Shown here: in pieces, positions 5,514-54,022 of the stretch
Layout: each line of letters opens with the position of its first letter
How positions within the stretch are numbered: position 1 is the stretch's first letter
Origin: Phorcus lineatus
Taxonomy: Eukaryota; Mollusca; Gastropoda; Trochida; Trochidae
Assembly: GCA_921293015.1 (NCBI GenBank)
Contig: OV121088.1
Span: 2,356,001-2,420,000, forward strand
Direction: 5' to 3'
DNA length: 64,000 nt
Position numbers and translations under genes: made by a program
Notes under the pieces: model-generated
The model's input: the letters and a program-made list of their open reading frames with translations, nothing else
Told to the model about the DNA's origin: nothing
Database searches by the model: none

Positions 5514-5624
5514 GCGTTAAAAAGACTCCGTAACCATTGTATTCGAGTATAACCGACTTTAGAACGCAGGTACAGCTCTTATGTTGTCACTCGAGACACC
5601 AGGAGAGGTATGTAAAGTGCGTAT

Positions 5625-6464
5625 TTAAAGAGCCACTCCGTGAGTTGTTGGAGTCATATATGGCAAACTTAATCAATGGTGTCATTTGATCGCGAAGTAT
5701 CGACTGTTACGAAAAAGAAACATTTTAGAGCTAATTTGTTTTGTACAGTGACAACATGAAGGTAGAACGTCGCAATTATGATTGAAAACTGGACAGTGGC
5801 GCGCGTCAAATAGTCAAACGTAATTTTGGAGACTTATCTAAAACAGCCAGGAGGGCAGTTAGGAGTTGATAGTGTTTTTTAGGCTATAAAACTAGTATCG
5901 ATATATATTGGACGTGATATCTACACCTCTGTGCATTTGTAAGGCTGTTTTTAGATTTTCATGGAAAACAGTATACCGTATTCGACTTAATAACCGCCCA
6001 CTCCCCTATAAGCGCCCACCCACCACGTTTTTGAGTGAACAATATGCGTCCTGATTTAGCGCCCACCTATCAACATTACTTACCTTGTATGCTGATTCAT
6101 TGAGGAAGGTTTTTCAGTCTTGCAATAAGTCTTTTACTTCCACTAAAGTGAAGAATACAGGGTATTTTTGAAGACCCCCAGCCACCACCAAAATGATAAA
6201 ACTTATAAAACCATATTTCAAAGACATGTGTATCGTAAGAAAACACTTTCAAGATTAAACTTGAGGACAATTTTTACCGTTATAATTAGCGCCCCCTTTT
6301 ACCAATTTTTTAAGCGCCCCGGGCGCTTATCACGTCGAATACGGTATGTCATATTTGTGTCTTTTGGACATGGGAAGTTAAGATGGTTTCATTGACATTG
6401 ACATAATACATTTAGTATCAAAGGTAAATAATATGTTATGAAAATCACGGAGTGGCTCTTTTAA
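5625..6464. repeat. MITE family C, copy 1, with nested insertion
   Basis: The terminal inverted repeats are TTAAAGAGCCACTCCGTGA (from 5625) and TCACGGAGTGGCTCTTTTAA (to 6464). A second copy without the insert is at 17591-18018, and the two share long stretches such as ATCAATGGTGTCATTTGAT. Removing the nested element at 5973-6347 leaves about 465 bp, close to the 428 bp of copy 2. Confidence 0.8.
5973..6347. repeat. Nested 375-bp MITE inside family C copy
   Basis: The ends ATACCGTATTCGAC and GTCGAATACGGTAT are perfect inverse complements. Just inside them are matching GCGCCC/GGGCGC-rich parts (TAAGCGCCC at left, GGGCGCTTA at right). It interrupts the family C element, so it inserted later. 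The target-site duplication cannot be set apart from the TA-rich ends by eye. Confidence 0.75.
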
Positions 6465-12618: not shown

Positions 12619-13754
12619 AGGAGTGCCGGAAGTGCGAGGAGGTGGTGCGCAGTGTTGAACGGCGCAGCCAGGAATCAAGCTTCCTGTGTGTAGACATAGC
12701 CGTCACTCTGCTGAATAACCGACCCCGCCGCGCAAAGAACACGGCAAACCGGAAACAGGACCGAATCCGTAAGTTAGAAGAACTGCTCGAAAAGGTCACA
12801 GCCTTGAGAAACTCCAAAGGCGGGATTCTGCTCGTTCACATTACCGGACTTTCAAAAGGGGACCGTTTCCTTGGTTACTTTGATGAGTTTATTGACGAAA
12901 AGCTGAACAGGCTGATAGAAGACGGTAAGCAGTTTGTGGACACGTACAGTCGGTTCTGGCTGAATGAGAAACCAGGATTCACAGACTACACGGACTTCGT
13001 CTGTCTGACTGTGAAGGCTTCCTGTAGTATCTCAACCTGCGACTTCAAAACCAAAATCTTACTGGACAGCGCAATAGAGAACCCGTCAACCACCAACATC
13101 CTCTCGCTTCTTTCAGGACGGAGGAAGTTTTCTGACCAAGCTCCAACAATTCGAGGATCGCCTGAGACTCTGAGCCAGCTGAACGAGAGCAGGAACATCC
13201 AACTGAAAGCCTTTAAGGGCAACGAGGAGAAGCAGAAAAGCCTTCTCCAGAATATCCAGAGTCTTGCTGAGTACATCTGGGAGTCCCTCCGTCTCAGGGA
13301 GTACATCACAGCTTACACCAAGCTGGAGGGAGGTGGGTCCTACTTTGTGGGCATAGAAGAGATCGAGGTCGAGAGAGATTCTCCAAAGGGTCAGTACTTT
13401 ACCAAGACACTGGACATCCACGGGGTGCCTGTTTCTAAGGCCAGCAGTTCTTGCTTTAAGTCGATATTTGGACGTTTGATAGAGAAAGACATCCTTGTTT
13501 ACAACTACGACGGACAGAAATTGTTAACTCCACCCAATCTGATTGAGGTCGAGTTTCATCCAATCAGTGACGTAAACAACTCTGACGTAGTGGTTATCGA
13601 GGTAGCGGTGAGGCAGACGACAGGACTAGTATTTTATGACAGCAAGGGACCCAAGTCGTTTCGTCTGCACAACCAACAGCTGGTCCCAGTTCCCGGCAAG
13701 AGATGGTTTCAGATGATAAGGAAACTCGCTGACAGCTTCAAGGAAGTCAAATAG
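12619..13754 (+). CDS. Schlafen-family core exon (two AlbA_2-like lobes)
   Basis: This internal or terminal exon encodes a Schlafen (SLFN) core. The acceptor TATTGCAG ends at 12618, and two bases complete a split codon before ECRKCEEVV. There is no in-frame ATG except near the C-terminus, so the start codon must lie in an unseen upstream exon. Counting from codon 12642, lobe 1 has LRNSKGGILLVHI (55-67) and GDRFLGYFDEFIDEKL (73-88). Lobe 2 has the SLFN-type NESRNIQLKAF (181-191) and LREYITAYTKLEGGGSYF plus VGIEE (218-240). The segment ends with VFYDSKGP..SFRL..WFQMI, as SLFN cores do. In SLFN11/13 this fold binds and cuts tRNA through an E/E/D site. The matching positions here read E182, Q187 and E239 or E240, so the site is altered. 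The frame ends at TAG 13752-13754. The family call is firm; catalytic activity is doubtful. Confidence 0.8.
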
Positions 13755-13847
13755 ACAATGGAAAGCAGTCCGGGTTAGTTTTCACATTTCATCTAAACCA
13801 GGGGGGATACAGGGTGTCACAAGTTACAAGTTAGTTAACTATTATGC

Positions 13848-13990
13848 AGGGTCCCGTTGCGCAAAACACTAAGGTGACCTTATATCACTAATACTAAGTG
13901 ATATACCTTGATAAAAAGGTAGCCTTGTGGAATGTTAAAGGATGACACTAAGGTTAACTTTGGTGCTAAGTTGCTTCGTGCAACGACCCT
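13848..13990. repeat. Inverted-repeat element, family B, 143 bp
   Basis: AGGGTCCCGTTGCGCAAAAC with ACTAAGGT at left is the imperfect inverse of GTGCTAAGTTGCTTCGTGC with AACGACCCT at right. Relatives are at 63669-63785 and, eroded and inverted, at about 1811-1890. It is probably a MITE. Confidence 0.7.
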
Positions 13991-14159
13991 CAGATTCTGT
14001 TAATTATGTGTGTATGAATATCTACATAATTTTAGATCCCTGTCCTATACACTTTCTTTGTATACTTTTATGATGTATATGAGAAATAGACTCTCAACAT
14101 TTACTATATATCGAGCTCTCATCGGTGGGTTACAACCCCAACCTTGGATACACTAGTCT

Positions 14160-14291
14160 CAGGCCCGTAGCACCAATTTCACGTCACTCACATAGTCATT
14201 ATTGCCTGTTGTGCTCAATGTCAGTGTCTGTTTCACTACTTGTATCGTGCAATCAAAAAAACATTTTTCCCCTAAAGTTGCTACGGGCCTG
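14160..14291. repeat. MITE with CAGGCCCGTAGCA ends
   Basis: CAGGCCCGTAGCA begins at 14160 and its perfect inverse TGCTACGGGCCTG ends at 14291. The pentamer AGTCT flanks both ends (14155-14159 and 14292-14296), a likely target-site duplication. The CAGG start recalls hAT elements, but those make 8-bp duplications, so the superfamily is left open. Confidence 0.65.
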
Positions 14292-16936
14292 AGTCTGTAG
14301 TCCGGTCAGACCCTGAAATAAGGTAGAAGCCTAAGCAAGTCTATAAAAAGACTTTAGATCTTGATTTCAGTCTCCATTTCATCTCATTTAATATTTTAAA
14401 AGTTTTTCGACTGACTGATACATTTTAGACTATAGATACACCATTGAAACCACTTTTGTCAATACCACTGCTGCTGTCCCTGCACTCGTAGCTACATTAA
14501 ACTTTTCCCCAAGTATTTGATAAGTCGATTTTCATGGACAGTCGTACAAGACAACTAGTACAAAATCTAAAATCCTCAAAGTAAAGGCATTTACATGATT
14601 TGTTGGACAAAGGAATTTATATTCCGAATCATTTTGTTAAGTGAGCTATCAAAGAATTTAAACACAATATCGGTGATATACGATAATAACATAAATGTAT
14701 CAATCATATCGGATGGAACATCGGTAGGCACTTAGGAAGAAACACCATTAATTTCCGTGAATACTCGGTCGACTACGGAAGCAAACTCACCTCAAAATGG
14801 CGAAGCTTGAACAGTTTTCGATTTTAACAAATTTAGTTTTATGTTCTCTTCGATTTTTAGATGTATTTAGTTTAATAAGCTCGCATTGAAAGGGGATATG
14901 AATAGGGAACCACGGGTTTACATATAAATGAATTGAGTTATTACGGCGCTATTTGCAAATAGTTGGGCTTCTGGGGCGCTATCATTAATCGGCCTCGGTA
15001 AATTATTTCACGAGGTACTTCATTGCAAATTCTAAAAAATAATATATCGTGAGATGTTTTGATTGTTGATTAGTTTGGCGATGTCTTGTATAAGTTAGGT
15101 TGTTGGTACAAAACAACGTAGGCCAAACAGGATCACGTGATGTTTGGTTGATGACCGACCTTATTGGTCGATATCAAAAATACAGATAACAAGCTGGAAC
15201 TATTTTCTGACGCGCTACGACAAAGTGCAGACGTTCATCGTTCCTAGAGTGATCACGTGACACAAATCCATTGCAATTTGTTTTGCTCCCAAGATCGTTC
15301 GTCAGGAGTTGACTTATCTTCCCCGGTGTTGACTAATGTTCGGATCATTGCATAGATTTTGAATAAGAAAAATAGAATAGTTTTACTTACCTGAATTATT
15401 TATACATTCTTAAAATCCAACAATAACAATAAACACGATTTTGGTATACATTTTGTAATGGTAAATACATTCAAAACATTTTTTTTAAATGATTAAATTA
15501 ACATGAAAATGTAACTTTCAGTAGTTATTGTTGTATATTCATATTGATGAAACCTTATGACTATCTTTACGAATTCAACTACAGCAATTAGAATTGCCTT
15601 CATAGGCATCTCGGATTGGTTTGAGCTTTTTTTTAAATTATTTCTATGAATTCTGCTATATCATTTCAAGATCTTGCCCTAAATCGTAACACATAGATAA
15701 CAATAAATGATGAATTTGTTGCTTGTTTCGTTTTTGAATACTCAAACGACAACAACGAAAAAAAATGAGCAAGAAATGTATCTATATTCCAACTCGTCTA
15801 TGCCGCCATTTTTGTTCATGAATACCTGTTATTAACAATGCATACAAAATTCATTAACATAATTCACAAAATTAGCTAAACATAATCTGTAAGGTCTCTT
15901 GTGATTTATCGTAATCACGACGATAAACGTTGAAAGCGAAAGCGATACAGCATCACCTGACAATATACCAAACCTTAACAAATGGAAATATCGACACAAT
16001 TACTCAAATTCATAACATTAATCTATAACCCCGTCGGTACATATGCTTTCAATGCGAGAACATAAAAATGAATGCATCAAAATTCGCAGAAGAGAACGAA
16101 TTGGGACGATATCCCTTCCGATAAGGACGGACATTTTCTGTTAATACTGTTTATCAATATTGACGTGTTTGTTTCGCGATTTAGCTGCGTTTTTATCCAT
16201 AATGGAAGCTTTTCCTTCAGTTAAACACTGTCTTTCAAATTCGTTGCGTTTCCTTCGCTTATTTAGGTGTTCATGTTTTTACAATAAATGCAGCGGTATT
16301 CTGAAATTGGTCTTTGTCTATATTTACAAATAAAGAATAGACTACACCTCATTATTTATTTGAAATCAAGGACATTATTGACACCTTGGCACTAATTAAC
16401 ATTAAGAATTAGCAACATTTGTTTGATAGTTAAAAGTAATTTTCAGTTAGAACGTAAAAATTGAAATGATTGCAGGGTATGATTGACAATGACTTACATT
16501 AAAGGGAGATAATTCATTTCTGAAGGACAAAATCTGCAACATATTTGCCATTTATCTCCTTAAAAAAGGTTAATATATATGTTTTTTGGCCATCAAAATA
16601 TTTTGAAAATACATATTTGAAGCACTGTAAGTAATAAACATTATTTATTTTTGACAATTCTTTTCAATCATCAATGAGTTTAATAAAATGTAAATGAGTG
16701 ACGCAATTTCCCCCTAATTGCCCTTACTTATAAAGCAAAAAATTCCCCTCTCACTCATTGCATTGAGAAAAGTTTTTCTTTTAAATTTATCCTGGGCTGA
16801 ATATGAAGGTTCGGCCAGAAACAATAGTAAAGATAGAAACGGCTTGTATTCATAGTAATGTCGCATTCGGGTGACCACTATGTTAGATTTGGGATTTGTT
16901 TGCTGAGTATGTACGATGGTTCTTTCAAAGTAATCG

Positions 16937-17254
16937 GGGGCGGGATAGCGCAGTGGTTAGCGCGTTCGGCTTCGGATCAGGAGGTCCGTGGCTCGAATCC
17001 CGCCAGGGGCTCGGCAACTTTGTCTGCAGTAGAGAACTGTTCTACACGCAGTCAGGTTTGGGTGCAATGCTACACTGAAATTCAGCGCAGTACCACCCAT
17101 GGTTCGCTAGTTCCAGCCGATGCTCGCAGGTTTCACCGCAATGCATAGCCACAATAGTGTTGCAGGCTTTCTCCCTGCCATGATACTAGCAGCCGCGATA
17201 TAAGTGAAATAATCTTGAAAGCGGCGTTAAACAACATCTCACTCACTCACTCAC
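16937..17254 (+). mobile_element. tRNA-headed SINE, full length
   Basis: The head has a pol III A box (TAGCGCAGTGG, 16946-16956) and B box (GGCTCGAATCC, 16990-17000, one mismatch to consensus), in a sequence resembling a tRNA-Arg(TCG)-like ancestor. The body follows, then a GAAATAATCTTGAAAGCGGC-type 3' domain and a (TCAC)n tail. A 12-bp target-site duplication, TCAAAGTAATCG, flanks it (16925-16936 and 17255-17266), which proves insertion as a unit. Such SINEs are common in molluscs. The frames at 16858-17148 are translations of the SINE. Confidence 0.9.
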
Positions 17255-17590
17255 TCAAAGTAATCGTCTTAAAATTGCAAACGACAATTTTATTTTAATG
17301 ATAATTGGTCTTGTATCGTTATAATACCGGAAACGTGCCTCGACACCCACGCACAAATTTGTCACACGTTATTTTGGATATTTATAAAATACAGGGGACA
17401 TAAAGACCAAATTTGGTTGATTAAATAGATTATCTTGTCTTGTAAATATATGTAAATAGGACGAGTGGTTTCGGCCTCTGCTAGTTGTATTGAAAACTTT
17501 TTGGGTAATCGGTGACGATAAAGCAAGCCGAGTGGAATTGTGACACGTTTGACAGACATATTGTCATATCATGAAAAGAAGGGAAAACCC

Positions 17591-18018
17591 TTAAAGAGCC
17601 ACTCCGTGAATTGGTGGAGTCATATATGCCAAACTTAATCAATGGTGTCATTTGATCGCGAAGTATCGACTGTTACCAAGAACACAGTTTAAAGCTTGTT
17701 GTTTTATTACAGTGACAGTATGAAGGTAGAACGTCGCAATTATGATCGAAAACCGGACAGTGGCGCGCGTCAAATAGTCAAACGTAATTTTGGAGACTAA
17801 AACAGCCAGGAGGGAAGTTAAGAGTTGAACGTGTTTGTTAGGTTATATCACTTGTATCCATGTATATTGGGCGTGATATCTACACCTCTGGCTGTTTTTA
17901 GATTTTCATTTGTCATATATAAAAGTTAAGATGTTTTGATTTATATCACCACATATGATATTTAGGTTCGTTTCAAAGATAAATAATATGTTACGAAAAT
18001 CACGGAGTGGCTTTTTAA
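17591..18018. repeat. MITE family C, copy 2
   Basis: The ends TTAAAGAGCCACTCCGTGA and TCACGGAGTGGCTTTTTAA are inverse. The 428-bp body matches the copy at 5625-6464 outside that copy's nested insert, for example CGTAATTTTGGAGACT and GGCGCGCGTCAAATAGTCAA. Confidence 0.8.
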
Positions 18019-18056
18019 GATAAAGAACCATAATAACGAGGCAAATATTTGATGCA

Positions 18057-18148
18057 GTAAAATAGCTTATAATGGAGAAGTAAAATAGCTTATAATGGAG
18101 AAGTAAAATAGCTTATAATGGAGAAGTAAAATAGCTTATAATGGAGAA
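18057..18148 (+). repeat. 23-bp tandem repeat, 4 copies
   Basis: GTAAAATAGCTTATAATGG followed by AGAA is repeated four times without visible mismatch, just upstream of the second group of SLFN exons. Confidence 0.9.
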
Positions 18149-18517
18149 GGCATTTATATGTTAGTAATTGCGGACCTTTTTGGTTCTACTGATTGACAGA
18201 TTCAGTGAGTATGTTTGTAAGAAAGAATGGCTTCAGAAACAATAAACATGTTGAGGTTCGATGGGGTTTAGATTCGGATATAACACGGGACTGTAGAAAA
18301 CTGTGGAGATAGGATCCGGAAGTGAGTTAAACAAGAAAAAAACATTCCTCATTGAACAAATGAAGTAAACTTTAGACTAACCTTAAAACTAACTTCTTGA
18401 AAAGCAACTCTAGAATTGGGATAAAAACTTTAATTCCTTTACCTAGGTTATTTTTCCTATTTCCCATTCTAAGGAAATATTCTGTATGAATTTGTATTTG
18501 ATTCCTTGTGACAACAG

Positions 18518-18583
18518 GTGCGAGCAGACATGGCGAGGAGAAAACACCCGAGAACAGTTGTCAGGGGGTTGTCGATATGACAG
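18518..18583 (+). CDS. Small SLFN exon (linker start), provisional
   Basis: A 66-nt symmetric phase 1-1 exon between acceptor GACAACAG and donor CAG/GTGCGT. Only one frame is open and phase-compatible with the next exon; it reads ASRHGEEKTPENSCQGVVDM. The exon is hydrophilic, as expected for a flexible joint between the SLFN core and the linker domain. It could receive the phase-1 donor at 13773/13774. It is supported by splice signals and phase only. Confidence 0.45.
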
Positions 18584-18908
18584 GTGCGTGTTCATTATAT
18601 CGATCTATCACAACATGATGTTTCATGGCATGGGAAGTGATGGCAGTAGTTTAACACAGGTAGCGTGCTGTCTAAGTACATTAGTTCAATTCCAGTGTAT
18701 TCTTTGTTGTTACCATTCTTGCAATTGTCTTAAGACAACTGTATTGAATGATTGGTCCTAAAATTAAAACTTTGCATCGAATTCTCAAAATTTTCGCCAA
18801 GTTCTATTTTCACTCATACAATTATTCATCTGGTACTGTGTTTTCTCATTTTCAGTTTCATGATTCTGTCAAAAACCAATGAGTAACAACCGCATTTAAC
18901 TGTTTCAG

Positions 18909-19031
18909 GTGTTGTTGACATAACTCAAAGCCGAGTGTTTGAGTTGCCTAGCAACGACCCCTTCCTGCCACAACTAAATCAGCTTGGTGATAGTCTAGAC
19001 AACATCACGTCACATTTGACAACCAACAAGG
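18909..19031 (+). CDS. SLFN linker-domain exon
   Basis: A 123-nt phase 1-1 exon: acceptor TGTTTCAG, donor AAGG/GTACGT. It reads VVDITQSRVFELPSNDPFLP and then LNQLGDSLDNITSHLTTNK. It joins in frame to KDGVKFYPRNLM of the next exon through a split Asp codon. Its place between the core and the SWADL-like region matches the start of the SLFN linker domain. Confidence 0.65.
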
Positions 19032-19645
19032 GTACGTTACTCTTCTGTATCGTTTCGATTTTATGATTGACACAATTTACGTCGATTGACAGCTGTTTAA
19101 GAAGATTGTCACAAGATTTATGCATAAAGATGATTTGTGATTTGTTTTCTCTGAACATTGAAGAGTTTGGTAATGGTGAATGCTAATAGGTTAGAATACT
19201 AGTATGTAGATCCTTTCAGTTAACAATCAATAGAACGTATTTTCTTACAACCTTTTAAATCTTACCTCTATGGGGTAAAGTGTCAAATATGTTGTTATTT
19301 TATGGAGAAGTAGTGGTTGTTTCGGGAAATCAACATCCCCATTCCAATCAGTTAAGTATAGTGATAATAGACAGGTTTCAGTCTTGATTTGTGATTGAAG
19401 ATCGGACAATGGCGTGCGCCAGTAACTCGATTTGAACTTAACTAAGGACATGTTGAATTTCGGGTCTTACCAAAATCATCAAAAATCTTAAAACTTTCCC
19501 TTTGGGACCTCAATAAGGGCTCAAAGAGTTATATATACACTTGGTGCCTTTTTTCAGGTATCGCGTCAGATTATTTTGGTTGTTCACCAGTTTGTTATTG
19601 CTAAACGACTAGTATGTGTTTGATGGAGCCCACTACTGTTTACAG

Positions 19646-20408
19646 ACGGTGTGAAGTTCTACCCTCGGAACCTGATGAGGAACGCGTCCTTGACGATGAA
19701 GCAGCTTTGTGAGAGACTGGAAGAGAGATATAACAGGGATAGTCACACCCTGGTCTACCTCGCCCACTGCCTCTCTGTCTCCCTCAACATCACCTCGCCG
19801 ACAGGTGCCCGTCAGGCTCCCCCTAGCACCGTGTGTGACGTCGTCGTTCTGTCTCAACACGCACCTGTTCTTGTTCTCACCGTGGGTTCCAAGAGTCCGG
19901 ATTCCAAACACCACAACCTCAGCATTGCCAAGGGTCTCGTTTCAGCTGTCCGGAACTTCACCAGCGAGCACTTCAGTGCGTTGTGTGGAGTTCTGGAAGA
20001 CACAGACCTGGACTCTTCGATGACCTTTGACACTGCCCTCAAAGACATATCCGAATCCTCCTCCTCCTTCTGTAACCCAGACTCGCTCAGTATGACGGAG
20101 TCCAAGTTCAAACACATCCTGAAGGCGTTGGCTGCTGTCGTCTCTGTATCTAAAGGTGCACAGGTTGTGAGGTCATTAACTGAGATTGATTCGTCCAAGG
20201 ATGAGGTTGAGGATGAGGATTTGTGGTTTCTGACTAAGGAACAATTCCTTCTCTTGACAGAGAATATAGACACATGTGATCTTGTTGTGGTGTGGGCGGG
20301 GCCAGGAACTGGATCCAGCACGCTGATGGTCGAGGTGGCGATCAGGCTGGAGAGGAGGGGACGAACTCTGCTGGTGGCCCATTCTCGTAGGCTCTGTCAA
20401 TCAGCCAG
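19646..20408 (+). CDS. SLFN linker and helicase P-loop exon
   Basis: A 763-nt exon: acceptor GTTTACAG, donor CAG/GTAAAT. The first part matches the SLFN linker: KFYPRNLM, then LAHCLSVSLN in the place of the family's SWAVDL motif, then VCDVVVLSQHAPVLVLTV. A Ser/Asp-rich stretch follows. FLTKEQFLLLTENID then leads into the SF1-type P-loop at 20299-20322, which reads GPGTGSST. The invariant Walker A lysine is Ser (TCC, three base changes from either Lys codon), so ordinary ATP binding is unlikely. RRGRTLLVAHSRRLCQ follows, like the strand after the P-loop in SLFN helicases. In the full family this domain acts on nucleic acid. Here it is probably structural or degenerate. Confidence 0.75.
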
Positions 20409-21035
20409 GTAAATAGACTCAAGTTTAGTCTACGATTTTTAAAAAAAATTAACAAAACGCTTTTGTGAATTTTAATATCTTGCTCTTATGTTGTCATGGT
20501 AAAGTGTAATAAGGCTGAATGAGGATCTAAGTTTATCGAAGACTCCTATTTCATCGAAGTCGAGCAACACTACCAGAGGAATATATACTTGTGTTGATTA
20601 GAGGGTTGCATGTTTTTTTAATTAAGGGACATAATACACATGCCCGCAATATATTTGTCATTTACATTATAATCAAGTGCAATCTATTATTTTTTTGTTA
20701 GCTAAAATGTAAATATGTTTTTATTACTAGAGCTCTGAAATTATATCCTGATCTTCATGCAATTAGTTTTGTTTTGATTAAATGTTTAACAGGAAAAGGA
20801 AATGAGTGACGGCTCTGTCGCCTGTGAAGTTTTCCAATTAAAGAGAAAATACTTCTCAACCTCAACGGAATGATAATTTATTCCTGTCGAATATCATGCC
20901 GAACATAATTATTCTTTAGTATAGGAGACGATATATTGTTATCAATATTTGATATAATCTCGTGTGCATTAGTTGTGTTGCCTCATATAAAGTAGATTTG
21001 CCCTCTGGAAAGATACAATAATCGTTTTATTTCAG
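20409..21035 (+). other. Intron of the SLFN gene
   Basis: 627 bp of AT-rich DNA between the donor CAG/GTAAAT and the acceptor TTATTTCAG. No other feature is seen. Confidence 0.65.
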
Positions 21036-21216
21036 GAAGCACAAAGTTTGTTACCGTGTCGTGGTGAGAGAGGATTTCCTCGCAAACCAAGAGGACTCCA
21101 GTGCAATGTTGGAACATGTTGATCACGTGGTAGCTGAGGACGTGCCAGAAGATCTTCTCTGTCGGGAGGGCAGAAAGGTTCACACATGGTTGTGTCTAAA
21201 GGTCAAAGGTCACTGA
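21036..21216 (+). CDS. SLFN helicase motif II exon, truncated end
   Basis: The acceptor TTATTTCAG gives a phase-2 join (split Arg codon) to the previous exon. It reads KHKVCYRVVVREDFL, then LEHVDHVVAEDVPEDL in the place of Walker B (usually DHIFVDEAQ-like), then REGRKVHTWLCLKVKGH and TGA at 21214-21216. Helicase motifs III-VI are missing. Either the protein ends here, or a weak donor before the TGA (for example AAAG/GTCACT, phase 1) joins a later exon. That donor would be phase-compatible with the propeller exon at 21591. The upstream part is well supported and the 3' end is uncertain. Confidence 0.6.
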
Positions 21217-21590
21217 CAGGCATCTTTTAGGGTGCCAATTATCATATGTAACGTAAATGGCGCTTCCAAATGTTGAGGCTTGTAAACATTAATAATCAAC
21301 GGATAACAGTGAAACGAAATAATGCAAATTATTTTGGGTATCGCAAAAGATTTTGAAGATTCTCGAAGATCCTATTTCTAACATTTGATTCCTACGTTTG
21401 AATTCATGTTATTTTCATCGCAGGGTCGCGTGTCGCTTTGAGGCAGCAGCAGAAAGTTGTACATTCCTATATAAAGAAATTCCACTTGGTGATAGGGTGG
21501 GCGGCAATTACACTTTTCTTACAATGTTAACGAAACACGTCCCTGTGTTTATCAACAATATCAGAGTACCAAAATGGTTTTCTTTTCCAG

Positions 21591-22633
21591 ACAAAACATA
21601 TCCGAGCAAAACGACAACCACCCCCAAATCTCCCATCTACACTTCTGATGTAGCTGCTGTATCACCACGGGCACATGCCTCTTCAATGACACCTGTATTC
21701 ACCACGGGGGCAATGAGAGCTGAAGTCAGGACACCTGCCAGGGCACCTTCCTTCACGACACCAGAGACCGAGGACACAGTAGTGTCTGAAGCACGGGCAC
21801 CTGCAGTTTCCATAGCAATGAAAACACCCAAGCTTGTCGATACCATTAGTTTCCGGATGGACGGGGACACGAAGGACCCTAGGATTTATGACTTCCTGGT
21901 ATTAAGGGTAGATAACTCTCAAGTCATTGTGGCTGTGGATATTGATAACTGTAAGATAAAAACTTTTTTCTCAGAGAAAGGTGAACCGAAGACTGGTTTC
22001 ATGACAATAGACAAGGACGCTGCCGGCATTACCAAACTTGGAAACATGGCCGCCGTTACAGTACCTTCCTCTCGTATCATACGGGTCATCGAGGTGACCC
22101 CTTACCTCAAGCCACATAGTGTTATTCACACAGAGAGACGCTACAGTGATATTGCCAGTCTTTGCGATAACAAGATGGCAGCATGTGCCCCAAAGGATGG
22201 TTTCGCATGTGTTGATTTCATTGACTACACTGGCAAGATTTACAATTCCATTTCCCGTGACCCGGAAGGACATTTTCTCTTTACGAACCCTCTTGTCATA
22301 GAGCCAGTGTCACCCTCCAGTGTCCTCGTGTATGATAAGGAAAGGAACTCAATCCAGTGCGTGACCGACCGGGGCCTTGTCCACTTTCGGTACAAGTCGG
22401 ACCGGAAGTTGAAGTATCCATGTGGGATGACGGTTTTACCGACGGGCGAGGTGTTGGTGGCTGATTCAGGACAACAGAAGGTCACCATGCTAGATCGGGA
22501 GGGGAACTACGTGAGAGACGTCCTCACACGACAGGACAATACCGCATTCCCCTACAGAGTGGCGTGCGACCAAGAGGGGCGACTTTATGTCGCATTGTTT
22601 TATAAAGAGTTGAAGGTGTTTGAATTTACTTGA
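21591..22633 (+). CDS. TRIM/NHL-type beta-propeller, 3'-terminal exon
   Basis: The acceptor TTTTCTTTTCCAG ends at 21590. The frame starts with a split codon (phase 1) and runs to TGA 22631-22633. The same frame is open back to 21398, so a longer exon from the AG at 21423 is possible. A Thr/Pro/Ala-rich linker (about 70 residues, several TP and AP pairs) precedes some 260 residues of blade-like repeats: VIVAVDIDNCKIKTF, MAAVTVPSSRIIRVIEV, FACVDFIDYTGKIYNS, VLVYDKERNSIQCV, GEVLVADSGQQKVTMLDREG, RLYVALFYKELKVFEF. This is the C-terminal propeller of molluscan TRIM2/3/56/71-like proteins, which binds RNA or protein. No RING, B-box or coiled coil is seen upstream; only SLFN exons are. It may be the end of its own gene, the 3' end of a SLFN fusion, or an orphan exon. 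Confidence 0.75.
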
Positions 22634-42740: not shown

Positions 42741-45530
42741 TTTCAAACTGTGTCACCGCGACATTCACTTTATGCAGAAAACCATCTGTATCATCTAAAG
42801 AAGCTGCTAGACACTTTAGATGCAATTATAACACCACTGTTTGTATACTCTAGCTGTGGATACAAGAACTGGCAAATCAATAATTAGAAGTACATGTGAG
42901 TAAATGAAATAAAAATCATCCCTGCATGATAAATTTCAAAATTGCTTTAACAGCTTGCTGAGTTTATTGGTATGTTTTTTTATTCTCACTATATGCAATA
43001 GCAGTTTGTGAGTAAGAGTTTCCACTTGGATGTGTACACTTACAAATGATTGCAAGGAGAGCTGAGTATGCACGGAACACTTGCCCTCATGGATGTAAGT
43101 CTGTAGAGTTAAGCGTTACAGGGTCTATGCAACCTGAGGCAAACATGATACTTATTTCTTTGTGTTATCATTTTGTATGTAAATAGTACTTATTATTCTT
43201 TCAAGTGATTCTGAATCCAGATGGAGGGTATCCTTGAAAGGACTCGACAAAGTAAAGCAAATACTGTCATTTCACTCCTTAAAGAAACAATAGCCATTCC
43301 TAGCCTGAAATGGGGATCTGGTTTTGTCATCTAGGCTTGTGTGTAGGGGTGCAAACGCTTTCATCTTGGTTTATTGCCTCCCTTCAACGACATGGGACCT
43401 CGTAAAAAGAGAGGGGGAAGAAAGACGGAGCATGTGTGTGCGACTGGCTTCCTTCATTCATAGATTGGACTAACATTGGGGGTAGAGGGACAGAAGGGGG
43501 GCTTGATTTACAATTTGTACTTCTCCTTATGACGCCTGCAGATATATAAAAATCAGGCAGCAAATTTTTTTATTAGCTAGATTTTATGCTTGGCTCGATT
43601 CACTGGTTTGTTGCTGGAGGAGGGAGGTGGAGTTAGAAGACAAGTATCTTTTTCTTCATATGAAGGAGTTCAGACTCGTAAAAGTTTTTGGCCAAGAAAT
43701 GTTTTTCAAGGCAGGAGGGTGCAACTTTATCCATTGTCTTGTTTCCAAATGGTGACATTGCACGTGCACAAAGATTGTTTTTGATGTTGAAGTTAACATG
43801 CAGACCAAAGGGTTTGGGAAGGCGTGGAGTTCAGCTTTATAGATGCATGCAGACTTTGGGAAGATAAAACCTTTATTTGCGAGCAAGCTTCAATTCACAA
43901 ATTGGGCTAATTTCTGGGAAGGGGGATAATGGATGGGGGAAGGGAATGCTAGAGCCTTGGTAGGTGAAGGAACATTTATTTTTTCACGTGGGAGAATTGT
44001 ATATGCATAAAAACTTCCTGAAGTTAAAAGTATGCAGTTGAAGATCAGACAGTCTCAATTCATTAGTAGTTTTAAGAGTGTGAACAAGAGAGTTTTCACA
44101 AGAGATGCCAATGTTTTGACTTTTGATGTAGTTCAAATAAATCTACTTGGAACAAATTATTTACTTCGTTTCCATTCTGAACTGACTCTTAACATTTGTT
44201 GAGCCTACTTAGATATGAGGCCAAAGCATTTATTTTTTTAAATTATATAGTTGATCATAGAACCTCATTGAAAGGGAATAATCAAAGGTTAATTCTGTGT
44301 TGAGAATAATCTAGTAAACAAGCAATCACAAAAATGTAGTTTTAACATTAGGTTTCATCCTGGACTAAACATAACTTAATAGAACATAACTTTATATGCT
44401 GTACTATACTTCTTTAATCCCTTTGAAAACCAATGAACATTGTTCTGTATGTGTAGAAGATACAGAGGACTACAACCAACTACAACAGTGTCATTTCATG
44501 ACTGCTTGACTAGTGATTTGATTTGGTCTATTAAACCTTAGATAGTGTAAAATATTTTATTCTAATGGATTCGGCATGTCTGACACTATTTAACTGTCTG
44601 CCATTAAGTATCATAAAAGACCAGTTATGAAAAAACAAAGTTTTTGGTACATGCATTTATTAAAGTATGACTAAAGCTAGGCTATGACAGTTTGGCCGAT
44701 GTATGGCCAGTGAATCAGCAATTGGTCAATACAGGGGCTGACCGACCAGACCAGGTCTAGCGTGATGTGAGTCTCGTAAATCAATTAGAGAACTGCATCC
44801 TTGTCAGATGGCCGTGTTAGCATGTGAACAGGAATTCTTTTCCTTCCTTCCCCACTGGAGAGTTACAAGTCTGCCCATCTGGCCGGCAGGAGATGAAAAA
44901 TCAACTTGTTTGGATGAATGTGATGTTTTTGAATGTAATTCCTCAGATAAAGTGTATGATTTTCTGTGAGAATTGTTTGTAGCTAGTTTACATTAAGTTT
45001 TACAAATCTTATACTTAGGGAATATAAAAATATTTGTTTACCCGTAAATTGAAACATCATTTGTGACATAATTTTAGTATGTGTACATGTGTCAGTCTAG
45101 CCAAGAAAATGTTTCTACACAAGAGCTCCTATAATTCTTTACCTGTGTTTTTAATATTTGTTCATGAAGTCACTGTTGCGGCCTTTAGAAAGAACAAGGG
45201 TCATTTTCTGGATATATTTATACATGTCTTATCTAGTAGGATGACAGATGACAGATCTGGTTTTTGATCTGGTTCATTGATTACCATAGTGATAAACTTC
45301 AGTACTCATCTGTATAAGGAAGCATGTAAATCTGCATGAAGGGGGAACCATCCAGTTCTCAGCAGGTGCTTGTCATTAACCCAGCAGCTTTGTGCCGTCC
45401 TGAACAAATATTACTTTTTGCTCATGCAATAGTCGGCCTCGCCCCTCAAAGCTTACATCTCGGCATAAACAGAAGGAAAACAATCCACCAAATGCTTTGT
45501 TTTCTCCTAAAGAGTGCAGGTCCTGGTGTG

Positions 45531-46454
45531 AGTTAGAATGCAAGTGGAACAGGGCAAGAAATCAGCCTGAAGTGCATGTGGTAGAGATTTGAAGGTTGAG
45601 GAATATCCCCCATGATGCTTAGCCCCGTATTTGCAAACCTTTGCAAAACCTCTCTTAGTACTGGAATAGCTGTAGGTGGTGTAGTTGGCATAATCCTAAT
45701 ATACAGATACATAACGACTATACCTTTGGACCTTATACTTGTGGTATTTGCTGTTAATTTGTGTAATTGAGTCTTTTTTCACTCTTTAAGAATAACACAT
45801 GTTACATATGTAGTAGGGAGACTGGTTAGGGTAAAAATTCTGCATGTGAAATGTAAGATATGGAAGACTTAAACCTTCATAGCAATAATTTGCTATTTGT
45901 TAATGTAGTTTTTCTGGTTAAAGCAACAATTCGGTCGAAAGAGAGAGGGAATTACCTGCCTGACAGTTTGTGTTGAGACTACTGCAGATTAGAGTTAGAA
46001 TGCAAGTGGAACAGGGCAAGAAATCAGCCTGAAGTGCATGTGGTAGAGATTTGAAGGTTGAGGAATATCCCCCATGATGCTTAGCCCCGTATTTGCAAAC
46101 CTTTGCAAAACCTCTCTTAGTACTGGAATAGCTGTAGGTGGTGTAGTTGGCATAATCCTAATATACAGATACATAACGACTATACCTTTGGACCTTATAC
46201 TTGTGGTATTTGCTGTTAATTTGTGTAATTGAGTCTTTTTTCACTCTTTAAGAATAACACATGTTACATATGTAGTAGGGAGACTGGTTAGGGTAAAAAT
46301 TCTGCATGTGAAATGTAAGATATGGAAGACTTAAACCTTCATAGCAATAATTTGCTATTTGTTAATGTAGTTTTTCTGGTTAAAGCAACAATTCGGTCGA
46401 AAGAGAGAGGGAATTACCTGCCTGACAGTTTGTGTTGAGACTACTGCAGATTAG
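45531..46454 (+). repeat. Perfect 462-bp tandem duplication
   Basis: 45531-45992 and 45993-46454 look identical from AGTTAGAATGCAAGTGGAAC to GAGACTACTGCAGATTAG. No mismatch was seen on reading. The last part (GACAGTTTGTGTTGAGACTA) occurs a third time at about 46599. It is either a very recent duplication or an assembly artefact. Confidence 0.9.
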
Positions 46455-47980: not shown

Positions 47981-48912
47981 CATTAGCCGCACTTTAGTTC
48001 ATCAGGCCATTAGCCACACTGTTTAGTTCATCAGGCCATTAGCCGCACTGTTTAGTTCGTCAGACCATTAGCCGCACTGTTTAGTTCATCAGGCCATTAG
48101 CCGCACTGTTTAGCTTGTCAGACCATTAGCCACACTGTTTAGCTCATCAGACCATTAGCCGCACTGTTTAGCTTGTCAGACCATTAGCCGCACTGTTTAG
48201 TTCATCAGGCCATTAGCCGCACTGTTTAGTTCATCAGACAATTAGCCGCACTGTTTAGCTCGTCAGACCATTAGCCGCACTGTTTAGCTTGTCAGACCAT
48301 TAGCCACACTGTTTAGTTCATCAGACCATTAGCCGCACTGTTTAGTTCATCAGACCATTAGCCGCACTGTTTAGTTCATCAGACCATTAGCCGCACTGTT
48401 TAGCTTGTCAGACCATTAGCCGCACTGTTTAGCTCGTCAGACCATTAGCCACACTGTTTAGCTCATCAGACCATTAGCCGCACTGTTTAGCTCATCAGAC
48501 CATTAGCCGCACTGTTTAGCTCATCAGGCCATTAGCCGCACTGTTTAGTTCATCAGACCATTAGCCGCACTGTTTAGCTTGTCAGACCATTAGCCGCACT
48601 GTTTAGTTCATCAGACCATTAGCCGCACTGTTTAGTTCATCAGGCCATTAGCCGCACTGTTTAGTTCATCAGGCCATTAGCCACACTGTTTAGTTCATCA
48701 GGCCATTAGCCGCACTGTTTAGTTCATCAGGCCATTAGCCGCACTGTTTAGTTCGTCAGGCCATTAGCCGCACTGTTTAGTTCGTCAGGCCATTAGCCGC
48801 ACTTTAGTTCATCAGGCCATTAGCCAAACTTTTTAGCTCATCTGGCCATTAGCCAAACTTTTTGGCTCATCAGGCCATTAGCCAAACTTTTTGGCTTACC
48901 AGGCCATTAACC
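47981..48912 (+). repeat. 29-bp minisatellite, about 32 copies
   Basis: The unit is CCATTAGCCGCACTG followed by TTTAGTTCATCAGG. The variable positions are few (TTCAT/CTCAT/CTTGT/TTCGT, G/A in CCGC, GG/GA before CC). Central units are homogeneous. Units at both edges are degenerate (ACTTTAG at left; AAACTTTTTAGCTCATCTGG at right), as usual for arrays evolving by unequal exchange. Confidence 0.95.
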
Positions 48913-50828: not shown

Positions 50829-52304
50829 TTATACCCCCGCCTTACAGCGTAAGCGGGGGTATATAGCGTTCATTCTGTCCGTCCGTCTGTCCGTCTGTCC
50901 GTCTGTCTGTCTGTCTGTCTGTCCGTCTGTCCGTCTGTCCGTCCGTCACAAATCTTTGTCCGGAGCATATCTCCTAAACTATAAATGCTAGCTTCACCAA
51001 ACTTCATACACTTATCAACCATCATCCCTAGATGTGCCTTTTGAGGGTTAGACCAACAAATGATTTTTATTTTTTGCCGTTTCCATGGAAACATGACTAA
51101 AACAGTGACTCTTTGACCAAGTCTTTTATCCGGAGCATATCTCCTAAACTATACATGCTAGCTTCACCAAACTTCATACACTTATCAACCATGATCCCTA
51201 GATGTGCCTTTTGAGGGTTAGACCAACAAATGGTTTTTATTTTTTGCCGTTTCCATGGAAACATGACTAAAACAGTGACTCTATGACCAAGTCTTTTGTC
51301 CGGAGCATATCTCCTAAACTATACATGCTAGCTTCACCAAACTTCATACACTTATCAACCATGATCCCTAGATGTGCCTTTTGAGGGTTAGACCAACAAA
51401 TGGTTTTTATTTTTTGCCGTTTCCATGGAAACATGACTAAAACAGTGACTCTATGACCAAGTCTTTTGTCCGGAGCATATCTCCTAAACTATACATGCTA
51501 GCTTCACCAAACTTCATACACTTATCAACCATGATCCCTAGATGTGCCTTTTGAGGGTTAGACCAACAGATGATTTTTATTTTTTGCTGTGTCCATGGAA
51601 ACATGACTTGAAATGTAACAAAGTCCTTTGTCCGGAGCATATCTCTTAAACTATACATGCTAGCTTCACCAAACTTCATACAATTATCAACCATGATCTC
51701 TAGATGTGCCATTTGTGGGTTAGACCAACAAATGATTTTTATTTTTTGCCGTTTCCATGGAAACATGACTAAAACAGTGACTCTAAGACCAAGTCCTTTG
51801 TCCGGAGCATATCTCCTAAACTATACATGCTAGCTTCACAAAACTTCATACACTTATCAACCATCATCCCTAGATGTGCCTTTTGAGGGTTAGACCAACA
51901 AATGATTTTTATTTTTTTGCGGTTTCCATGGAAACATGACTGAAACAGTGAATTTTAATTAAGTCCTTTGTCCGGAGTATATCTTCTAAACCGTACATGC
52001 TATCATCACCAAACTTCATACACTTATCAACCATGATCCATATTGGTGCTCCTCTTGAGGGTAAGAGCAAAAAATTATTTTTATTTTTTGCGGTTTTCAT
52101 GGAAACGTTACTAAAACAATGACTATCTGACAAAGTGCTTTTTCCTGAGCATATCTCTTAAACTATACATGCTAGCTTCACGAACTTAATATACTTATCA
52201 ACCATGATCCCTGAGTGAGCTTTTTGAGGGTAAGACCAACAAAGAAAGCTAGACTATAGTTTGAAGCGGGGGTATGTGAGCTGTGCTCACTTCTTTACTT
52301 GTTA
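50829..52304 (+). mobile_element. Pearl/HINE-like tandem-repeat element, copy 1
   Basis: The head is a hairpin, TACCCCCGCcTTAC-agc-GTAAGCGGGGGTA (50832-50861), followed by TATAGCGTTCATTCTG and a (CYGT)n tract. Eight ~170-bp units follow (TCCGGAGCATATCTCCTAAA at 50959, 51129, 51299, 51469, 51631, 51801, 51971; TCCTGAGC at 52143). Each unit carries CAAACTTCATACACTTATCA and TTTCCATGGAAAC. The tail is GAAGCGGGGGTATGTGAGCT with a GAGC..GCTC mini-hairpin. A microsatellite plus ~160-170 bp core repeats between short unique ends is the plan of mollusc pearl/Helentron-derived elements. Membership of that family is inference. The frames over it are by-products. Confidence 0.65.
50874..50947 (+). repeat. 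(CYGT)n microsatellite
   Basis: Alternating GTCC and GTCT tetranucleotides at the head of the tandem-repeat element. Confidence 0.95.
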
Positions 52305-52577
52305 GATAAACATTGAGCACTTCTATTCTGCAAATTAATTTCTTAAGTTCATTGTAGGACTCCTGTCTTCACCTCTGTTAGAGAATAAATATATAAGAAA
52401 TAAGTTAAATAGTTGACAGAAACTAGCAATCAATGGATGGTTCTGTGTTTCATCACTCATGTACTCATGTAAACATCGAGCACTTCTTTCTTGCCAATTA
52501 AATTCCTAAGTTTATTGTAGGACTCTATCCTTTACCTCTGTAAGAGACAACTTTTTAGCTCATCAGGCCATTAGCCA
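52305..52577 (+). repeat. Spacer between the two arrays, built from duplicated pieces
   Basis: AGTTGACAGAAACTAGCAAT with CAATGGA near 52410 repeats the sequence in front of copy 1 (50758). AACATTGAGCACTTCT..ATTGTAGGACTC at 52307 recurs at 52472 as AACATCGAGCACTTCT..ATTGTAGGACTC. The last 29 bp (52549-52577) are one unit of the 47981-48912 minisatellite, of the variant seen at its right edge. Confidence 0.7.
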
Positions 52578-54022
52578 TTACAGCGTAAGCGGGGGTATAT
52601 AGCGTTCATTCTGTCCGTCCGTCTGTCCGTCTGTCCGTCTGTCTGTCTGTCCGTCTGTCCGTCTGTCCGTCCGTCACAAATCTTTGTCCGGAGCATATCT
52701 CCTAAACTATACATGCTAGCTTCACCAAACTTCATACACTTATCAACCATGATCCTTAGATGTGCCTTTTGAGGGTTAGACCAACAAATGATTTTTATTT
52801 TTTGCAGTTTCCATGGAAACATGACTAAAACAGTGACTCTATGACCAAGTCCTTTGTCCGGAGCATATCTCCTAAACTATACATGCTAGCTTCACCAAAC
52901 TTCATACACTTATCAACCATGATCCCTAGATGTGCCTTTTGAGGGTTAGACTAACAAATGATTTTTATTTTTTGCGGTTTCCATGGAAACATGACTAAAA
53001 CAGTGACTCTATGACCAAGTCCTTTGTCCGGAGCATATCTCCTAAACTATACATGCTAGCTTCACCAAACTTCATACACTTATCAACCATGATCCCTAGA
53101 TGTGCCTTTTGAGGGTTAGACTAACAAATGATTTTTATTTTTTGCGATTACCATGGAAACATGACTAAAACAGTGACTCTATGACCAAGTCCTTTGTCCG
53201 GAGCATATCTCCTAAACTATACATGCTAGCTTCAACAAACTTCATACACTTATCAACCATGATCCCTAGATGTGCCTTTTGAGGGTTAGACCACCAAATG
53301 ATTTTTATTTTTTGAGGTTTCCATGGAACATGACTAAAACAGTGACTCTATGACCAAGTCCTTTGTCCTGAGCATTTATCCTAAACTATACATGCTATCT
53401 TCATCAAACTTCATACACTTATAAAACATGATCCCTAGATGTGATTTTGAGGGTTAGACCAACAAATGATTTTTATTTTTTGCGGTTTCCATGGAAACAT
53501 GACTTAAACAGTGACAAAGTCCTTTGTACGGAGTATATCTTCATAACTATACATGCTATCTTTACCAAACTTCATACACTTATCAACCATGATCCATTGA
53601 TGTGCCTTTTGAGGGTTAGACCAACAAATGATTTTTATTTTTTTTGCGGTTTCCATGGAAACATGACTAAAACAGTGAATTTATGACTAAGTCCTTTGTC
53701 CGGAGTATATCTTCTAAACCGTACATGCTATCATCACCAAACTTCATACACTTATCCATATTAGTGCGTCTCTTGAGGGTAAGACCAAAAAAGTATTTTA
53801 ATTTTTTGCGTTTTACATGGAAACGTTACTAAAACAATGACTATCTGACAAAGTGCTTTTTCCTGAGCATATCTTCTAAACTATACATGCTAGCTTCAAC
53901 AAACTTAATACACTTATCAACCATGATCCCTAAGTGAGCTTTTTGAGGGTAAGACCAACAAAGAAAGCCAGACTATAGTTTGAAGCGGGGGTATGTGAGC
54001 TGTGCTCACTTCTTTACTTGTT
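52578..54022 (+). mobile_element. Pearl/HINE-like tandem-repeat element, copy 2
   Basis: The plan is that of copy 1: TTACAGCGTAAGCGGGGG, a (CYGT)n tract (52610-52674), eight ~170-bp units (starts at 52687, 52857, 53027, 53197, about 53366, 53527, 53699 and 53861) and the same GAAGCGGGGGTATGTGAGCT tail ending CTTTACTTGTT. The left arm of the head hairpin is missing and replaced by minisatellite sequence. In both copies the last two or three units are the most diverged, in the same order, so the copies share a recent multi-unit ancestor. Confidence 0.65.

Follow-up and report, generated by a model that had tools for sequence, protein, structure and literature searches.

A Schlafen core and a Schlafen linker in putatively linked reading frames in the gastropod Phorcus lineatus

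The locus and its core exon

We analysed a stretch of 64,000 nucleotides (nt) of the Phorcus lineatus genome (GenBank assembly GCA_921293015.1, contig OV121088.1, positions 2,356,001 to 2,420,000, forward strand; G000:C13:2356001-2420000 in our own numbering), hereafter the window. An earlier note, made from the letters alone, had read positions 12619 to 21216 as one molluscan-type Schlafen gene with a core, a linker and a helicase start. On the + strand, this region and its downstream flank carry a Schlafen core exon ending in its own stop codon (open reading frame 1, ORF1), a candidate start exon just past that stop, a spacer exon, a linker and helicase-start exon, a short exon C, and a probable last exon encoding an NHL propeller (together the proposed ORF2). 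In our judgement, the chances are about even that the locus belongs to an expanded, shuffled and receptor-like Schlafen family encoded as such linked frames, with the core in ORF1 and a spacer, the linker, a dead helicase and an exchangeable C-terminus in ORF2. The term "linked frames" is meant neutrally, as DNA cannot separate a bicistronic mRNA from a second promoter or alternative splicing.

The genome searched comprised 958 Mb in 74 contigs, and a single donor model served for all splice scores. The molluscan type holds, the genome having 16 matches to the haemocyanin beta-sandwich family PF14830 in two clusters of eight. All the peptides quoted in the earlier note lie on the + strand and in the order given there, within the exons 12619-13751 and 19646-20408. 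A divergent, multi-exon arrangement with the core followed by the linker, as in Schlafens, is supported.

The core exon (12619..13754, + strand) starts at a phase-1 acceptor at 12619, ends with a TAG stop codon at 13752-13754, and contains the peptides NESRNIQLKAF and EYITAY..EGGGSYFVGIEE, which were located by translation in 12619-13751. Searched alone, it matches SLFN_AlbA_2 with an E-value of 4.9e-4 and 21 bits, the Pfam cut-off being 25.3 bits, and 13 of 21 paralogous core exons match the same Pfam model at E ≤ 0.01. With 81 matches of the core exon within its own genome, the window locus is one of dozens of Schlafen loci, a member of a large family and no lone gene. A profile built from 21 members returned 14 sequences of the PDB at E ≤ 1, every one of them a Schlafen; the earlier note had made its assignment depend on such a match, which for the core is thus found. 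The Schlafen core fold, with two AlbA-like lobes, was recovered by Foldseek and VIA-align, and the structural comparison placed Schlafens first, followed by SAMD9 and RecG-like AlbA folds.

The core exon (12619-13754) contains no start codon, and an upstream first exon of ORF1 is therefore missing from the model. We found no conserved candidate in the window or in about 9.5 kb before two paralogous cores (L019 and L020), where only repeat-like or chance matches occurred. In 12 of 21 cores, the highest-scoring acceptor of the exon is a phase-1 site. In the window, no donor scoring above 2 precedes the stop codon at 13752-13754. The continuous frame that runs across core and linker in long Schlafens is consequently interrupted here, at 13752. 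An open frame of 1966 amino acids in one paralog proved to be an artefact of a run of N.

A dense cluster of Schlafen cores lies at G000:C29:8.94-9.24 Mb (L013, L036, L037, L039, L041 and L048), in which some recent near copies share an ATG exon 8 nt past the core stop. L027 has a tandem repeat of its core exon end directly after the core stop, with a unit of about 60 nt.

The active site and the zinc site

According to PMC9482658, tRNA cleavage by SLFN11 requires E209, E214 and K216, and in the tested Schlafens the loss of any one of these stops cleavage, while the D252A change slightly raises SLFN11 activity. The same paper describes Schlafens missing one of the three residues as deficient, for example SLFN5 and mouse SLFN2. 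The corresponding region of the window (13185..13361, + strand) shows a glutamate at the E209 place, a glutamine at the E214 place, a lysine at the K216 place and a glutamate at the D252 place (residues 189, 194, 196 and 247 of the core exon read from 12621). Across the 21 aligned cores, the E209 and K216 places are invariant (21/21 each), the E214 place is a glutamine in 15 and a glutamate in six, and the D252 place is a glutamate in 20 and a glutamine in one. The triad is therefore complete in six of the 21 cores, and incomplete (E, Q, K) in the window. In the tree, the distribution of glutamine and glutamate at the E214 place needs three changes, and the window clusters weakly (79/72) with L024, L026 and L027. 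None of the 21 aligned cores has a CC where the zinc-site cysteine pair (C321 and C322 of SLFN11) would lie; a CxxC motif is found at the core start in 18 of them.

Judging from these residues, the majority of these cores are expected to lack RNA cutting of the SLFN11 type, whereas the six with a complete triad may cut RNA. Given its glutamine at the E214 place, the window core most likely binds RNA without cutting it, as a regulator or decoy; we infer the loss of catalysis, and the glutamine might still serve within an altered site. The use that SLFN11 and SLFN13 make of this layout, which the earlier note had cited (tRNA cleavage and antiviral restriction), is not supported for this copy, in which E214 is replaced and the Walker A lysine is gone.

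The linker and the helicase remnant

Downstream of the core, a spacer exon (VVDITQSRVFELPSNDPFLPQL..; 18909..19031, + strand, phase 1 to 1) is conserved with L026 and L027. It is followed by the linker and helicase-start exon (19646..20408, + strand, phase 1 to 2), to which translation assigned the HCLSVSLN and CDVVVLS..PVLVLTV peptides and the P-loop region. This exon gave no Schlafen match when searched alone, while a profile of 16 members matched, where the linker lies, SLFN12 (E 0.0028), SLFN14 (0.033) and SLFN11 (0.16). The linker domain after the core is thus recognised by profile only, and the family assignment of this second exon group, for which a profile search had also been proposed, succeeds in that form and fails for the single exon. 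Core-linker pairing was counted within 20 loci of about 10 kb each: a same-strand linker exon lies downstream of the core in 15, and none was recognised in L011, L015, L016, L025 and L028. A phase-1 donor scoring at least 3.5 ends eight of nine spacer exons; of the 16 linker exons, five end at a phase-2 donor with such a score, and 12 do so once the limit is lowered to 1.

HCLSVSLN had been placed at the SWADL motif, whose position in the Schlafen linker we took from PMC9482658. The position is right; the letters of SWADL/SWAVDL are absent, the linker reading CLSVSL there. Similarly, the P-loop region is where it had been reported, without its Walker A lysine: the alignment shows GPGTGSST at this place (20299..20322, + strand), and none of the 13 rows spanning it has GK[ST]. 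The Walker B place falls in exon C (HVVAEDV; 21036..21208, + strand), both ends of which were read by eye and score below the splice limit. Its peptide has similar counterparts in L014 and L012, and exon C stands above background only in the window and these two loci (score 43 vs ≤38), recognition in L019, L020 and L027 being by eye only. With GPGTGSST at the one motif place and the degenerate VVAEDV at the other, the Walker A and Walker B motifs of an SF1 helicase are not intact here. The joined helicase piece of 185 residues, searched against the PDB, matched no Schlafen and no helicase of that family, and gave two weak RadA rows; the helicase assignment therefore rests on position.

The last exon

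The probable last exon (21424..22633, + strand; start at 21424, 21447 or 21450) comprises a unique N-terminal part, a Thr/Pro-rich stretch and an NHL propeller (about 21818-22630). It matches TRIM2 (5.1e-11), Thin (4.3e-10) and Brat (8.6e-8), which identifies NHL repeats, and the Pfam NHL model gives 19.3 bits for a cut-off of 20. A single-sequence structural model reached a predicted local distance difference test score (pLDDT) of 43, too poor for use. An NHL propeller thus stands downstream instead of the helicase C-lobe, and with this likely last exon the locus would extend to 22630, beyond the end at 21216 given in the earlier note.

Other modules are found at this place in other loci. Both nSTAND3 and ankyrin exceed the Pfam cut-offs at four of the 20 paralogous loci (nSTAND3 bits: L014, 96; L015, 31.5; L023, 45.5; L010, through L031, 36.1). 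L022 has a weak nSTAND3 of 14.1 bits, and a weak SPRY-like exon lies near L027 (15.8 bits vs a cut-off of 26.3). The downstream reading covered no more than about 7.3 kb at 16 of the 20 loci, so that absences of a module there mean little. In the window's own gene, Pfam detected no STAND NTPase among the exons scanned.

These last exons could be separate neighbouring genes, with ORF2 ending after the linker and the helicase remnant. Both domains are common in the genome (543 NHL and 382 nSTAND3 first-look candidates, 101 places having been scored for the NHL family of the window), and the junction between exon C and the NHL exon is weak, with no well-scoring donor. The nSTAND3 exon of L010 is directly preceded by another ATG exon rich in Ser and Asp, and may for this reason be a third frame there. 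On the other hand, the best acceptor of the last exon is in phase 1 in L010, L014, L015, L017 and L022 (phase 1 ranks only third in L023), and the NHL exon begins about 215-240 nt downstream of exon C. Matches to other NHL genes of the genome begin at residue 135 or later, apart from two that begin at 101 and 75, so that the first part of the exon is largely peculiar to it. In addition, four same-strand nSTAND3 exons were observed vs about 0.03 by chance (about 170 kb, 20 cores), an estimate that gene clustering makes too favourable. We consider separate genes rather unlikely, and retain the last exon as a probable part of ORF2.

Some further frames were seen in the genome. L017 (4521-9899) and L030 carry a Ser-rich, minisatellite-like repeat frame of 1815 amino acids after the linker exon. 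The nSTAND3-ankyrin frame downstream of L010 (L031, 4441-6999, - strand) ends in what resembles, by eye, a membrane-spanning helix. A large cluster of single-exon NHL frames of about 555-577 amino acids, relatives of the window NHL exon, occupies G000:C16:10.18-11.29 Mb.

A second ATG past the core stop

Three bases past the core stop, the window has a candidate start exon for ORF2 (MESSP-; 13758..13773, + strand), ending at a phase-1 donor (CCGG|GTTAGT) of score 2.9. This window exon (13758-13773) is suggestive only. We looked for such exons across 41 loci, made up of the 21 cores and 20 of 36 further loci, which form 31 near-copy groups. The exon had to begin with an ATG at most 430 nt past the core stop, to be at least 25 nt long with at least 30% Ser, Asp or Glu, and to end at a phase-1 donor. 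Sixteen of the 41 loci (9 of the 31 near-copy groups) have such an exon, compared with a mean of 0.2 and a maximum of 1 in dinucleotide shuffles, none on the reverse strand, one with a phase-0 donor and none with a phase-2 donor. Given its length, its donor score and its frame, which is that of the core, the window exon is not counted in this test.

The distance from stop to ATG varies widely: -1 in L017 (TAATG), +8 in L013 and its near copies (four), +14 in L014, +16 in L055, +25 in L021 and L045, +79 in L015 and L038, +210 in L009, +282 and +285 in L020 and L046, and +362 in L023. L044 has a similar ATG exon at +405, which in our reading was longer than the test allowed, and L024 has a 16-nt exon like that of the window at +114. 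When the 16 hits and the window are taken together, a purine occupies position -3 of the ORF2 ATG in 16 of 17, this ATG is the first one past the stop in 10 of 17, and it is out of the core's frame in 13 of 17. This last count argues that the core stop is real for the family; it also led us to reject stop readthrough as an explanation for the family.

The core exon could also be an alternative last exon, a shared phase-1 upstream exon being joined to the core in one isoform of the gene and to the ATG or spacer exon in the other. The phase-1 acceptors of the cores fit this scheme, as do the phase-1 start of the window spacer and the core stop of L013, whose TAG is a fair acceptor (2.5) ahead of the ORF2 ATG. 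Looking for a common acceptor upstream of the ORF2 ATG, we found one in some loci only. In L015, L023, L024, L028 and L038, however, the open stretch upstream of the ORF2 ATG contains no AG, which leaves no site for joining a coding exon, and the upstream exon that the scheme needs is the one not found in the window, L019 and L020. We hold this scheme to be unlikely. More improbable still is that the window is a continuous core-linker gene with an in-frame TAG (by decay, polymorphism or assembly error), its core running to the donor at 13773 and then to the spacer: the ATG at 13758 does share the core's frame, and a phase-1 donor scoring 5.8 directly precedes the core stop in L010 and in L052, a near copy of it (L012 has a weak one, 2.0), but the second ATG of the family is mostly in another frame. 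Donors ahead of the core stop are also uncommon: within the last 25 core codons, a phase-1 donor reaches a score of 3.5 in three of the 41 loci (L010, L052 and L049), and exceeds 1 in four of 21 (L010, L012, L017 and L022).

The linked frames thus keep the first place, with several points standing against them. The window ATG exon is short (16 nt) and in frame with the core, and its donor scores just 2.9. The definition of the ATG exon was fixed after examples had been seen, and 25 of the 41 loci fail it. Because of their phase-1 donor before the core stop, L010, L052 and L049 look fused. Silent changes exceed or equal replacing ones in the ATG exon of three pairs (L015/L038, 8:5; L021/L045, 4:3; L020/L046, 1:1), whereas replacing changes prevail in two others (L013/L037, 8 vs 3; L013/L039, 3 vs 1), so that constraint on this exon is not uniform. 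To these are added the missing first exon of the core, the lack of a Schlafen match for the joined helicase piece and the below-limit borders of exon C.

Proposed organisation and role

The homology, the exon order, the residue changes and the ATG exon of the 16 loci are observed. From them we infer that both frames would be spliced and expressed, that their products would come into contact, and that the NHL exon would belong to ORF2. Instead of one gene with the SLFN11/13 layout, as first proposed, the core has its own stop and the linker chain probably its own start. ORF1 would encode the Schlafen core alone. ORF2 would start from its own ATG at or soon past the core stop and encode the spacer, the linker and the lysine-less helicase N-lobe, followed by a C-terminal module exchangeable among loci, here the NHL propeller. 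In the most likely mode of working, the locus would yield both proteins, which would reunite inside the cell; the ORF2 product would use its C-terminal module to sense or hold a target, and would control or carry the core.

A broader and more tentative reading extends this to a family-wide, NLR-like intracellular immune repertoire of split Schlafens, based on a tRNA-nuclease fold. Each would consist of a core effector and a sensor frame, with stop and start at times overlapping (TAATG in L017), perhaps on a bicistronic mRNA, and with NHL, SPRY-like or nSTAND3-ankyrin ends; a functional STAND NTPase would come after the dead helicase or take its place. An immune role would fit, since PMC7772429 counts Schlafens with the genes most strongly upregulated in the gills of mussels after Vibrio.

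Comparison with known systems

Research on Schlafens has mostly concerned vertebrates. With vertebrate SLFN5, SLFN11, SLFN13 and SLFN14, the locus shares a two-lobed core, a linker and an SF1-like helicase start, in the same order. In contrast to the long vertebrate Schlafens, the molluscan core and linker lie in separate frames, the E214 place is changed, the zinc-site cysteines and the Walker A lysine are absent, and another module replaces the helicase C-lobe. One of the three cleavage residues is also missing in SLFN5 and mouse SLFN2, according to PMC9482658; the present copy differs in being from an invertebrate, in having a glutamine at E214, and in that six of its 21 relatives keep all three residues. 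The AlbA-type tRNase domain of SAMD9 lacks the two-lobed Schlafen core, and all Schlafens rank above SAMD9 in Foldseek.

The oyster has an expanded set of DZIP3-type HEPN proteins that carry ankyrin (PMC3710099). Some of our paralogous loci, ending in nSTAND3 and ankyrin, resemble such mollusc nSTAND3-ankyrin and DZIP3/HEPN receptor-like proteins; unlike them, their upstream neighbour is a Schlafen linker and core and no HEPN, and the window copy has no nSTAND3. The NHL propeller recalls TRIM-NHL proteins, with TRIM2 as its best match among those given above, whereas Pfam showed no sign of a TRIM N-terminal part (RING, B-box, coiled coil) in the window exon (21389-22633), RING and B-box not having been searched separately.

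Among the open-access titles that our literature searches listed, none dealt with split Schlafens or with a Schlafen associated with STAND or NHL. If the proposed organisation is true, it would show a tRNA-cutting immune effector taken apart and rewired beside receptor-type domains. The natural E-type and Q-type cores provide material on the role of the core without cutting, and the family offers a setting in which to examine linked two-frame genes in animals.

Repeats in the window

Dispersed repeat copies at about 5534-6051 and 17484-18112 of the window are common to L013, L027 and L034. Further downstream, three tandem arrays (45530-46454, 47981-48883 and 50954-53962) consist, respectively, of a perfect 462-bp duplication, 31 copies of a 29-mer and 17.6 copies of a 170-mer.

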